33,236 bases of DNA, from contig CANQLG010000021.1 of NCBI GenBank assembly GCA_947624645.1, positions 1-33,236 of the forward strand, in the 5' to 3' direction. The translations under genes and the position numbers were made by a program. Origin of the DNA: Candidatus Gastranaerophilales bacterium (GTDB taxonomy: Bacteria > Cyanobacteriota > Vampirovibrionia > Gastranaerophilales > Gastranaerophilaceae). The stretch's first letter is position 1, and every line of letters starts with the position of its first letter. Positions 1 through 23,294 of the stretch are shown in pieces. A model generated the notes under the pieces. That model saw nothing but the letters and a program-made list of their open reading frames with translations. It ran no database searches and had not been told where the DNA came from.

Positions 1-276
1 TTCTGCACCGTCAGAACAATACAAATATACTTCATAAAACAAACCGTTATCTTCAGAAATAAATATTTTATAATCTTGATTGTTATTATAAACGGAATAT
101 AAAAGTTCTTTAACATTATCAGGATATTTCCCGTTCTCTGACTTATAGTTTTCAATTGATGTTCTGTATTTTTTATCTAATTGAAATGATTTGTATAACT
201 TGTACAAATTTCTTGACAAGAATAAAAGCAATATAATAATTATTAATAAAATACAAAAACCTTTTAGTAATTTCAT
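1..276 (-). CDS. small membrane-anchored protein, 3' end beyond window edge
   Basis: Ninety-two codons are open from an ATG at 274-276 to the window edge. A purine-rich ribosome binding site (AGAGGG) lies seven bases upstream. Residues 5-20 form one very hydrophobic helix. The rest is polar and contains an IENYKSENGKYPDNVKEL stretch, which resembles the 'Y...NG.YP' segment after the helix in pseudopilins. There is no prepilin-peptidase motif (GFTLIE), so I do not call it a pilin. I do not recognise the family. The gene has its own promoter with a nine-G spacer tract (303-333), shared with the gene at 1210-1632, so its expression may switch on and off. Its C terminus is not visible. Confidence 0.6.
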   Translation of the reverse strand, partial: MKLLKGFCILLIIIILLLFLSRNLYKLYKSFQLDKKYRTSIENYKSENGKYPDNVKELLYSVYNNNQDYKIFISEDNGLFYEVYLYCSDGAE

Positions 277-302: not shown

Positions 303-333
303 ATTATAACACTTTTACCCCCCCCCGAAGCAA
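303..333 (-). promoter_or_regulatory. promoter with G9 tract in the spacer (gene at 1-276)
   Basis: Reading the minus strand: TTGCTT (333-328), a 19-base spacer made of C, nine G and TAAAAGTGT, then a perfect TATAAT (308-303). The start codon is 26 bases further on. A 19-base spacer is longer than the preferred 17, so losing one or two G would improve it. The same layout occurs at 1660-1690. Confidence 0.7.
318..326. repeat. homopolymer G9 (minus strand), promoter spacer
   Basis: Nine consecutive C on the plus strand, inside the -35/-10 spacer of the promoter at 303-333. Elsewhere in this AT-rich window C or G runs are no longer than about five, except at 1675-1683 and 21166-21175. Such tracts are typical slipped-strand mispairing sites. 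Confidence 0.85.
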
Positions 334-1659: not shown

Positions 1660-1690
1660 ATTATACTACTTTTACCCCCCCCCGATTCAA
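1660..1690 (-). promoter_or_regulatory. promoter with G9 tract in the spacer (gene at 1210-1632)
   Basis: Reading the minus strand: TTGAAT (1690-1685), a 19-base spacer of C, nine G and TAAAAGTAG, then TATAAT (1665-1660), 27 bases before the ATG. It matches the promoter at 303-333 base for base except at two spacer positions across the 30 bases from the tract through the region after -10. Confidence 0.7.
1675..1683. repeat. homopolymer G9 (minus strand), promoter spacer
   Basis: Nine consecutive C on the plus strand, placed identically to the tract at 318-326 relative to its -10 box (nine bases between tract and TATAAT). Confidence 0.85.

Positions 1691-18141: not shown

Positions 18142-18143
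<2 letters not shown>
18004..18143. repeat. GC-rich element at the dnaK stop codon
   Basis: A GC-rich block of about 140 bases in AT-rich surroundings. It is bounded by a 12-base direct repeat CGCAATTCCGCT (18004-18015 and 18132-18143), the right copy overlapping the dnaK stop codon. GAAATTGC at 18021-18028 can pair with either GCAATTCC. The right end (CTTCGCTCGACT then CCCTGCGCAA) matches that of the element next to rplF (CTTCGTTCGACT then CCCTACGCAA). Confidence 0.7.
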
Positions 18144-20004
<1,861 letters not shown>

Positions 20005-20069: not shown

Positions 20070-21636
20070 TTAATATTTCATTTCTTTTTTATTTAAGATA
20101 AAATCTTCATCTGACAATTTGTTGAAATCCGCAATATTTAACTCATAATCCGTAAATACACCGCCATTTTTTTCAAATTCTTTTTTTGATTCTTTCTCTT
20201 CTACAAATAAGTATTTTATTTTTATTTCTTTTTGATAATTAATATTATTTAAAAACTTTATATATGGTGAAAAATCATAGTATATATTTTCTTGGCGATT
20301 ATCAAAATCCTTAAAAAATCCCCAGTAATAAGCACTATCAAATAAATTTTTACTTAAATATGCCGGTTTATTCTTAAGATTAGCCAATTTTATTATTTTT
20401 TCCGCCTTATAAGTTTCCGTTTTGTAGGGAATTATGGAATATTTCAGTTCATGGCAGTAAAAGTTATAATCTTTATTTAGTAATATCAAAGCTACTATTG
20501 ATAAAATAATACACATAAAATATTCTTTAAATATTTTATTCTTTATCAACAGATTTAATAATATTAAATTAAATGATAATAGCAATATGTTTAACATTAC
20601 ATGTAAATCAGGATGAATTAACCAATACTGTCCTTGCGTATAATAGCTTCTGCCTAAACCTATAAGCATTGAAAAGAAGAACAATATTCCAAATAAAAAA
20701 CATAATACTGTTTTCACTGTTTCTTTTTCTGTATATTTATCTTTCGTATTTTTGTTAAAAAGCAGAATAACAACCTGAGCTATAAGTAATATATATAAAA
20801 CAGAATGTTTTAAAATAACATATTTAAAATAATCAAGACTAAAAGAAGGAACGGATTTTAAGGTATCAATTATATATTGCGTATTAAAAAAATTATCTTC
20901 GGCATGCCTTGTAAAAGCGCCGGCTTTTAAAAGTATTATAAATCCTAAAATTGAAATTATTATATATATCCCAAGTTTAAGTAACTGTTTTTTATTTTTA
21001 TTCTTACTAAAAATACTTATAATAAAATATAAAACAAATCCGATTAAGACAGCTATCAATACTAATTCATTTGAAATACCACACAAAAATATAAAAAGAC
21101 ATGTAACAAAAAAGTAAAATAAACCGCAATTATCGTTCAAATCTTTAAGAAAGAAATAGAGCGTACCCCCCCCCCATCAGAAAAGCAGGAAAAAGCATTC
21201 TATAAAATCCTTCATAGATAAATAATAACAAAACATATTGTTCTTGAATAAAAAACATTATTAAAGCACTTGTAAATAAAAATGCTAACGGATATAAAAT
21301 GTTTATTTTTCTATTCAGATATAATAAATTAGTAATTGAAATAAACAGAATAATAAACAAAACCGCTTCAATATTACAATAATAGTTAGCTTTAAAAAAA
21401 CTGGGATGCATATTTAAAGCATTTGGCAATAAAGATGAAAACAGTCTGCCCAAAATTGAAGATAAATAGATACCTCCATCAGGATTAATGAATAAACCTT
21501 TAATATTTTTGCAAACTAAATCCAAATCATCAACAAAAATAAAAGAATAACTAAATAAATATTTTAAAATAAAAAATTCTAAAAAAATAAATAATAATAA
21601 ATACACAAAAATTAGAATTTTATTTTTACAAAACAT
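20070..21636 (-). CDS. multi-pass GT-C-like membrane protein, frame broken at a G10 tract (phase-variable, OFF)
   Basis: Two frames abut at the ten G of 21166-21175. The upstream part ends ...AFLMGGGYALFLS-stop; the downstream part continues in another frame with membrane helices to 20070. With nine G the frame reads MGGGTLYFFLKDLNDN and joins them into one protein of 521 aa from the ATG at 21634-21636. A longer start at 21675 lies upstream of the predicted transcription start, so I prefer 21636. The protein has about 11 hydrophobic helices, an Asp-Asp pair after the first helix (FIFVDDLDL), as in GT-C glycosyltransferases, and a soluble C-terminal tail of about 130 residues. DUF6056-like or polysaccharide-modifying proteins are the nearest idea; the substrate is unknown. 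It is divergent from nanE. Confidence 0.7.
21166..21175. repeat. homopolymer G10 (minus strand) inside coding sequence
   Basis: Ten C on the plus strand, read ATG GGG GGG GGG on the minus strand. The present length puts the downstream 356 codons out of frame; nine or twelve G restores them. Confidence 0.9.
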
Positions 21637-21660
21637 AAACCTATATCCAAAATAATAACT

Positions 21661-21692
21661 TTTATTATAATACAAATTTGCTATATAATCTA
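21661..21692. promoter_or_regulatory. overlapping divergent promoters of nanE and the GT-C-like gene
   Basis: On the minus strand TAGATT (21692-21687), 17 bases, TATAAT (21669-21664), 28 bases before the ATG at 21636. On the plus strand TTTATT (21661-21666), 17 bases, TATAAT (21684-21689), which would start transcription at or next to the A of the nanE ATG. The two promoters occupy the same DNA and would compete. Confidence 0.4.
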
Positions 21693-21696
21693 TAAT

Positions 21697-22383
21697 ATGG
21701 AAATCATAAAAGCATTAAAAAACGAAGTAATAATATCCGTACAGGCGATGCCTGATGAACCGTTATATAACGAAATTGCATTAACAGCGATGATGAAATC
21801 CGTTATAAACGGCGGAGCAAAAGGATTACGTTTGGCAGGAGCCAGAGATGTTGCCAATGCTAAAAAATTGTTTGATGTACCGGTAATAGGATTAACCAAA
21901 CCCGATAAACTTCCTGATAATTGGCGAGAAATTGTTTATATAACTCCGACTTTAAAAGAAGTTGATGAGTTAATAAAAGCAAATGCTGATATTATAGCAA
22001 CTGACGCAACGCAAAGACCAAGACCAAAAGAAAGTTTAAAAGAAATTCTTCAATACATAAAAAGCCATAATAAACTTGCAATGGCGGATATTTCTACATT
22101 TGAAGAAGGTATAAATGCGAGAGAACTTGGTTTTGATATAATATCAACAACACTATCGGGATACACTCAATATTCACCTATGAAAAGTGATAAACCTGAT
22201 TTTGTGTTGCTTAAAAAATTAACAAAAACGCTTGATTGCCCCGTAATACTTGAGGGCAGAATTTGGTCGCCAAAAGAGGTCGATAAAGCTTTTGAACTGG
22301 GATCGTACAGCGTTGTTATCGGTTCTGCCGTAACTAGACCTCAACTGATTACCAAAAGATTTTGTATAAGAGGACAAAAATGA
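21697..22383 (+). CDS. nanE: N-acylglucosamine-6-phosphate 2-epimerase NanE
   Basis: 228 aa. It converts N-acetylmannosamine 6-phosphate to N-acetylglucosamine 6-phosphate, joining sialic-acid catabolism to aminosugar metabolism. The TIM-barrel landmarks are ISVQAMPDEPL, GLRLAGARD, IGLTKPD with the catalytic lysine, YITPTLKEVDEL, ATDATQRPRP and the VILEGRIWSPKEV block near the end. No ribosome binding site precedes the ATG, and the best promoter would make a leaderless message. The stop overlaps the kinase start (ATGA). No nanA lyase or transporter is in the window, so peptidoglycan- or glycan-derived ManNAc is as likely a source as sialic acid. Confidence 0.9.
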   Translation: MEIIKALKNEVIISVQAMPDEPLYNEIALTAMMKSVINGGAKGLRLAGARDVANAKKLFDVPVIGLTKPDKLPDNWREIVYITPTLKEVDELIKANADIIATDATQRPRPKESLKEILQYIKSHNKLAMADISTFEEGINARELGFDIISTTLSGYTQYSPMKSDKPDFVLLKKLTKTLDCPVILEGRIWSPKEVDKAFELGSYSVVIGSAVTRPQLITKRFCIRGQK

Positions 22384-23294
22384 AACAAATTTTAGCAATA
22401 GATGCGGGCGGTACCAAAATAACCTGCGCAGTTATTAATGAAAACGGAGAATTTTTAACGGAAATCGAAAAATTCCAAACTCCCAAAAAAATTGATGAGT
22501 TAATAAAACTATTCAAAGACATAATAACAAAATACGAAAAAACCATTGATATGACGGCATTTGCAACAGCAGGTGCGGTAAACACGGATAATACAAAAGT
22601 GGACTCTTCTACTCCCAACATGCCTGATGGTTATAATAAACTTGATTTTTCACAACTAAGCGCCAAACCTGTTTTTGTAGAGAATGATGCAAATGCGGCA
22701 GCGTGGGCAGAATATAAAACAGGTGCAGCAAAAGGCGAAAACAATACAATTATTATTACAATAGGAACAGGTGTTGGGGGAGGATTTATTGTTGACGGAA
22801 AACTGCTTAGGGGTAAATCCGGAAGAGCAGGTGAAGTAGGCAGTATGAAAATCAACTCCAAAGGCAGAGTCTGCACATGCGGAAGAAAAGATTGCTGGGA
22901 AAGCTATGCTTCAGGTTCAGGACTTAAACAAACTGCAGAATTTGTTGCAGCTGTTGACGATATATTTAAAACAAGCATATTCAGCTCAAAAAATCCGGAT
23001 GAAATATCTACTTATGATATTATTGAAGGCTTAAATAAAAATGACGCCTACTCAAAAAAAGTATTTAAAATTTTTAAACAAGACTTAATCACGGGACTTA
23101 TAAACATAACTAATATTTTTGATCCTGAAAGTATCATTATTTCAGGCGGACTAGGTAAGTTTTTTGACACTAAAGAACTTGAACAAGCGGTAAATAGTGA
23201 AATTGTCGTTTCTCCCATAAAAGTTAAATTAGCTAAAGCAGGTAATTATTCGGGCATGATTGGCACTGCACTTTTAGCATGCCAAAAATATTAA
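22380..23294 (+). CDS. ROK family sugar kinase (candidate N-acetylmannosamine kinase)
   Basis: 304 aa from the ATG at 22380, chosen for its AGGA ribosome binding site and ATGA overlap with nanE; an upstream ATG at 22362 has no such support. The ATP site IDAGGTKITCAV (7-18), ENDANAAAWAE with catalytic Asp103, IGTGVGGGFIVDG and the zinc knuckle CTCGRKDCWESYASG (165-179) mark a ROK kinase. The usual zinc-ligand histidine in GEVGH is Ser155 here (GEVGSM). Coupling to nanE suggests ManNAc kinase (NanK), but glucokinase or GlcNAc kinase cannot be excluded from sequence alone. Confidence 0.8.
   Translation: MKQILAIDAGGTKITCAVINENGEFLTEIEKFQTPKKIDELIKLFKDIITKYEKTIDMTAFATAGAVNTDNTKVDSSTPNMPDGYNKLDFSQLSAKPVFVENDANAAAWAEYKTGAAKGENNTIIITIGTGVGGGFIVDGKLLRGKSGRAGEVGSMKINSKGRVCTCGRKDCWESYASGSGLKQTAEFVAAVDDIFKTSIFSSKNPDEISTYDIIEGLNKNDAYSKKVFKIFKQDLITGLINITNIFDPESIIISGGLGKFFDTKELEQAVNSEIVVSPIKVKLAKAGNYSGMIGTALLACQKY

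Follow-up and report, generated by a model that had tools for sequence, protein, structure and literature searches.

A poly-G tract within a GT-C-fold glycosyltransferase gene of a gut Candidatus Gastranaerophilales bacterium: a probable phase-variable switch, assembled out of frame

Homopolymeric repeats occur both inside coding regions and in promoters, as with the poly-C tracts of the Helicobacter pylori fucosyltransferase genes futA and futB and the promoter-spacer tracts of Neisseria porA and opc. To our knowledge, Campylobacter lacks MutS/MutL mismatch repair. Campylobacter carries phase-variable surface-glycan genes with poly-G/C tracts (phasome catalogue PMC6321876; review PMC8355987); of the C. 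jejuni genomes that the catalogue names, the richest has 81 putative phase-variable SSRs. In nadA of Neisseria, a repeat alters the spacing of promoter elements (PMC2791445). According to a 2025 review (PMC11868660), the major open questions include why phase variation at many loci is seemingly confined to pathogens, and whether database bias is behind this pattern.

The window, i.e. the whole 33,236-nucleotide stretch analysed here, belongs to a 2.14-Mb genome (99.8% complete, 71-contig draft) of a non-photosynthetic member of the Cyanobacteriota of the animal gut. A GT-C-like gene is split in it by a run of ten Gs, and the features concerned are:

21145–21636, minus strand: assembled 5' portion of the GT-C-like gene, with ATG 21636 as its start and the stop as its end
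21166–21175, minus strand: G10 homopolymer, the proposed slippage switch
20070–21165, minus strand: 3' part of the GT-C-like gene, consisting of ORF 21140–20070 and the open codons up to the G10
18142–19983, minus strand: dnaK, directly downstream of the GT-C gene

The G10 lies 461 nt 3' of ATG 21636, within a transmembrane stretch (PAFLM-GGG). The upstream ORF (21675–21145) has 176 codons when read from an in-frame TTG at 21675 and 163 when read from ATG 21636, which is the more likely start. The downstream ORF (21140–20070, 356 codons) lies on the same strand in a shifted frame, and at the local base composition an open stretch of this length has a chance of about 2e-12. Beyond the G10, the assembled frame stays open for six codons, reading Tyr Ala Leu Phe Leu Ser, and then reaches TAA. 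Joining the two frames, which are linked only via the tract, yields 521 residues, with no further stop or frameshift between the G10 and the end of the gene. G8 was matched 7 times (overlapping matches) in the window against 0.11 expected, and none of 100 shuffles reached 7; the G10 is an above-chance homopolymer within an ORF and, judged by sequence, a change in its length would toggle between a full-length and a truncated product of one gene. The preliminary description had located the G10 correctly in position and strand and had proposed a single frame of about 521 codons, in agreement with the joined frames and with the alignment of homologues along the whole length. It had also stated that the first frame ends after 11 more codons; the frame does end soon after the tract, but only the six codons follow it, and 11 fits roughly when counted from the tract start.

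Homologues of the GT-C gene were identified in 16 other genomes of the genus (E < 1e-15), most of them as uninterrupted single ORFs of about 500–540 codons, and the closest one shares 54% identity over residues 1–517 in one open, stop-free frame. The claim that the two ORFs are one gene, against which homologues encoded as two genes had been named as counter-evidence, is borne out by these unbroken full-length ORFs. Where the relatives have MAGMV-like residues in the alignment, the tract encodes MGGGT, with one residue more, in a membrane segment in which an extra or missing glycine is plausible. Against the closest homologue, dN/dS is 0.275/0.852 on the 5' side of the G10 and 0.359/1.135 on the 3' side, i.e. 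alike in both halves at about 0.32. Since both halves are equally constrained, the gene is not decayed, and since the 3' part is constrained like the 5' part, it must be translated now or have been so until recently; with the intact 3' frame, this upholds the earlier view that decay is not advanced.

No homologue of the GT-C gene has a tract at exactly the same site. Three paralogues, however, have tracts elsewhere, each a G9 in frame: L071 (the same gene as L018) near the 3' end, L148 in a second species at the same place as L071 (94% of the gene), and the distant L025 in a third species at 12% of the gene. By their positions, tracts arose independently at different places within this gene family, a pattern not expected from drift in a single pseudogene.

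The neighbouring dnaK is 96–97% identical to that of Candidatus Gastranaerophilales bacterium MAGs, many of them from rabbit gut ('Lapin'). In at least four such MAGs, a full homologue of the GT-C gene occupies the slot directly upstream of dnaK in the same orientation, L071 being one of them. Because it is absent from this slot in most relatives, the GT-C gene can be regarded as accessory from these comparisons. Divergent from it, on the plus strand, lie a gene for a NanE-like epimerase (21697–22383, by-eye reading) and then one for a ROK kinase (22362–23294, Pfam), which together suggest amino-sugar or sialic-acid use.

The AlphaFold model of the closest intact homologue is confident (pLDDT 88.5, pTM 0.90) and has the multi-helix GT-C transmembrane fold, at 54% identity to the protein studied here. 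When the model was aligned with solved structures by VIA-align, all of the top 41 rows (Z 14.2–7.8) were members of the GT-C superfamily or GPI-transamidase subunit U, the first unrelated chain following at Z 7.1. The GT-C rows comprised OST/AglB/PglB, PMT, ArnT, AftA/AftB/Emb, DPY19, ALG and PimE, with Z values of 14.2 for AglB (3waj), 14.0 for Pmt (6p25), 12.8 for ArnT (5f15), 12.5 for AftA and 10.8 for PglB. The best Foldseek matches were OST, DPY19 and PglB, with a probability of 0.9–1.0 but E values of only 0.02–0.2. GT-C enzymes have functional acidic residues in loop 1. The pair D36 D37, located right after the first helix, shows no variation among 12 sequences and is conserved to 90% or more in a set of 26; it forms an acidic motif in the first extracytoplasmic loop, with a putative catalytic role, and by position it fits the GT-C loop-1 acidic site.

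None of the 26 members of this protein family matched a GT-C family in Pfam, the closest homologue had no match in NCBIfam, and the PDB sequences contained no relevant match. The protein is not assigned to any of the named GT-C families (PMT, ArnT, PglB, Aft), having no curated profile match. With no Pfam or NCBIfam family for the protein, the enzyme activity is predicted from the fold. At the level of fold, at which the GT-C label of the preliminary description was right (Z values up to 14.2 against 7.1 for an unrelated chain), the split gene is predicted to encode a polytopic GT-C-fold glycosyltransferase, and from this fold the product is likely to act on the cell surface or surface glycans.

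The G10 is one of many tracts in this genome, which contains 47 runs of at least 9 Gs and none of exactly 7. In the 375 kb of tract-bearing sequence to which tract-gene annotation and gene-level tallies refer, we found 75 G5, 9 G6, 0 G7, 4 G8, 30 G9, 12 G10, 3 G11, 1 G12 and 1 G13, whereas an order-3 Markov model predicts about 0.5 runs of 9 or more. The length spectrum is bimodal, with a gap at 6–8 and a hump at 9–10, and is likewise so in sister species. The annotated tract-bearing genes of the fetched regions are mostly surface or glycan genes, and the tracts could be divided into 3 classes:

Class (a), within glycan or surface ORFs: GT2, GT6, GT10, GT56-like (weak), radical SAM, acyltransferase-3, TupA-like and other ATP-grasp, AlgX/DHHW-like SGNH and DUF1574/DltD-like
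Class (b), immediately 3' of the start codon: prepilin genes (three) and giant ORFs
Class (c), in a promoter module: TTGCNN, G9–11 and TAAAAGTGGTATAAT, with the start codon about 20–30 nt further

Class (a) further comprises an aldo/keto reductase gene and others that carry no surface label. The coding tracts preserve the frame in some genes and break it elsewhere; both situations are common, as is expected if the state is free to vary. For example, four tandem AlgX/DHHW-like SGNH paralogues (L048:7429–14243, minus strand) each contain a C9 or C10 at a similar place, with one of the four in frame. On contig C63, a GT6 gene (blood-group-transferase family; L044:1850–2320, plus strand) is interrupted by a G10, and a GT10 fucosyltransferase gene (L044:2701–3480, minus strand) has a C13; phase-variable host-type glycans are a possibility raised by this pair, both genes being on one 4-kb contig for which a binning caveat applies.

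In class (b), the prepilin genes (L054:6762-, L054:19049- and L055:7394-, contig C7) have a C9 or C10 (or G10) a few codons after the ATG and are all out of frame, the N-terminus reading MDKRNTPPP and then, in the other frame, GFTLAEVLITLVIIGVI. This theme of near-start C9/C10 or G10 tracts in prepilins seems to recur in sister species and in another genus (L189, L201/L204, L205/L206/L208, L220). The giant ORFs (1350–2400 codons; L050:8420–15619, L052:286–7176, L062:1538–6724, L042:6389–10450 and L049:6781–11085) each have a G9 or G10 no more than about 100 nt from the start, two of the five being out of frame across the tract, and three of the five contain Chlamydia-PMP-like repeats (one strong match, two weak). 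A number of tracts are close to contig ends, at most a few hundred bases away (C19:33887, C30:26662, C37:20795, C63:7, C18:34462, C21:318), as if the assembly had been broken by length heterogeneity. A C8 at C33:6085 was dropped as a candidate switch; it is located within a terminator-like hairpin, AAAAGCACCCCCCCCTAAGGGGGTGCTTTT.

Ten exact copies of the class (c) module are present in the genome, preceding genes for Kelch-repeat and other secreted-looking proteins:

318–326, minus strand, window: G9 between a -35-like TTGCTT and a -10 TATAAT (303–308), before gene 1–276 (minus strand)
1675–1683, minus strand, window: G9 in the same module, with its -10 TATAAT at 1660–1665, before gene 1632–1210 (minus strand)
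C1:104602, C11:8315, C30:26662, C33:1242, C33:4113, C33:7429, C37:20795 and C47:8270: the remaining exact copies

At both window sites, the tract lies between a -35, assigned by consensus only, and a -10, with a gene shortly downstream, so a change in its length would alter the -35/-10 spacing. The preliminary description had overlooked that these two tracts are of a promoter class. Other promoter-region tracts precede WG-repeat proteins. The module was matched 11 times against once for a reversed control, both here and again in genome G006. It was found throughout the genus and reads TTGCNN, G8–11, TAAAAGTGG and TATAAT, about 20–30 nt upstream of the start codon; a search of 59 further genomes from across the family, of which a single one belongs to the same genus, gave no copy of its exact form. 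Orthologous promoters differ in tract length over a range of 8–11, which is a comparison between species and no proof of within-population switching: 1) the window-1675 gene has G9 here, and G11 and G9 in two other species; 2) at the C37 gene, the G9 of this genome stands against G10 in a species with a 99% identical protein (over 102 residues), while a third species has G9; 3) at the C33:7429 gene, the lengths found across three species are G9, G10 and G8. At the window 318 site, C9 is opposed to C10 despite 94% identity over 355 bp. Scanning of viral contigs gave no match to the promoter module or to the context of the G10 tract, and phage carriage of the switch was rejected.

A census of runs of at least 9 Gs was made in 286 genomes of the order, 264 of them from the family of the window. 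Within the genus, the number of tracts ranges from 0 to 119 per genome. In the family, at least 12 of the 264 genomes have 100 or more, the richest being G084 (176), G199 (151), G195 (132) and G089 (128), and the genera g34 and g35 have near-zero tracts. In six other families of the order, represented by 22 genomes, the number per genome is 0–6. Since mutS1 is present almost everywhere, in 285 of the 286 genomes (241 above the curated cut-off), tract-rich and tract-free alike, loss of mismatch repair via mutS was rejected as the cause of tract abundance. In the distant relative G084 (L216–L220), each of the 13 tracts in 100 kb has precisely ten Gs, against a spread of 8–13 elsewhere, owing either to an assembler effect or to strong selection; as this uniformity differs from what free slippage predicts, caution is needed, and not every tract may be slipping freely. 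It is probable that the GT-C gene is an element of a clade-wide contingency system, in which genomes of the window's family carry from dozens to over 170 poly-G tracts, placed in the coding regions of glycan enzymes, prepilins and giant surface proteins as well as in a reusable promoter module.

We consider it very probable that the two ORFs are one GT-C-fold glycosyltransferase gene, in which slipped-strand mispairing at the G run causes phase variation, and that the assembly shows it in the OFF state. Slipped-strand mispairing would alter the length of the tract by single bases. With 9 or 12 Gs, a single 521-codon frame would give the full-length enzyme (ON), whereas with 8, 10 or 11 Gs translation would end within the membrane domain after about 165–175 residues (OFF), the assembled G10 representing the latter state. 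By analogy with ArnT, PMT and Aft, the enzyme would transfer a sugar, supplied by a lipid-phosphate donor, to a glycan or protein of the envelope. A high rate of slippage, its reversibility, the substrate of the enzyme and the phenotype are what we infer for this switch, along with host immunity, phage or glycan niche as the selective force. The reading as a poly-G switch, already put forward in the preliminary description, draws strong support from its context: the dozens of tracts, many in surface genes, the bimodal spectrum, the independently placed tracts of the paralogues and the length differences at orthologous promoters.

Other explanations for the split frame are conceivable. An error of assembly or sequencing, in which all cells have nine Gs and an intact gene and the G10 is a homopolymer miscall, is quite unlikely, although the assembly is a draft in 71 contigs, homopolymers are the commonest site of indels, and G9 would be in frame and is the commonest tract length of the genome. 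Such an error leaves unexplained the 47 runs of 9 or more with none of 7 and the varied tract lengths in sister species, and many other tract genes are out of frame too; moreover, it would alter the called state at one locus but not the nature of the tract. Even less likely is a pseudogene, permanently inactivated by a random frameshift in the G run. The out-of-frame assembled state and the absence of this accessory gene from the dnaK slot in most relatives would agree with it, but the codons after the tract are free of other stops and frameshifts and under the same constraint as those before it, and runs of G9–G11 are much more frequent than expected and cluster in surface genes.

Ribosomes and RNA polymerase are prone to slip on long homopolymers. 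Programmed frameshifting, in which slippage of either along the G run lets the G10 form yield full-length protein, could account for the many coding tracts that are out of frame in the assembly. It is, however, not needed when tract length itself differs at orthologous sites; tracts are also found in promoters, outside translation, and homologues produce the protein without any tract. We therefore regard it as very unlikely in place of a length switch, to which leaky expression by frameshifting may add without replacing it.

No description of poly-G switching in this clade was found in the open-access literature, in keeping with the earlier remark that switching of this type is poorly described in such organisms, and a clade-wide phasome has apparently not been described so far; the one paper found to link the clade with phase variation concerns flagellin diversity and has no bearing on the matter. 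Since an uncultured and apparently commensal lineage of gut Cyanobacteriota has such repertoires, with 100 or more tracts per genome in some species, pathogenesis need not be their driver, which bears directly on the question raised in the 2025 review; phage and mucosal antibody are natural candidates, and close species with 0 versus more than 100 tracts offer a ready comparison. Many seemingly 'broken' surface genes of gut MAGs may not be dead but in an OFF state, and the consensus of a single MAG conceals a large number of surface states.

Compared with ArnT, PMT, PglB/AglB and AftA/B, the protein described here has the polytopic membrane fold and an acidic pair in the first outer loop in common, but it lacks the large soluble domain of PglB/OST and, unlike the named GT-C families, any sequence-family match in Pfam, NCBIfam or PDB. 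As in H. pylori futA/futB, homopolymers are found in transferases for host-type glycans (GT10 with C13, GT6 with G10), although tract positions and organism differ and this likeness is separate from the GT-C gene. Campylobacter (PMC6321876, PMC8355987) resembles this clade in having G/C tracts of similar length in glycan and surface ORFs, dozens per genome and in mixed frame states; some relatives here have 100–176 tracts of at least 9 Gs, against the 81 putative phase-variable SSRs of the richest among the C. jejuni genomes that PMC6321876 names, and the sets of this family are among the largest known. Campylobacter belongs to another phylum, whereas here the promoter tracts form one repeated module and mutS1 is present. 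As with the spacer tracts of Neisseria, repeat length at 318 and 1675 sets promoter spacing and would tune transcription, but here a near-identical module of poly-G and TAAAAGTGGTATAAT precedes many genes in one genome and occurs genus-wide. This kind of switch is already known; for its occurrence in this clade, for a set of this size and for a promoter module shared in this way, no description was found in the open-access literature.
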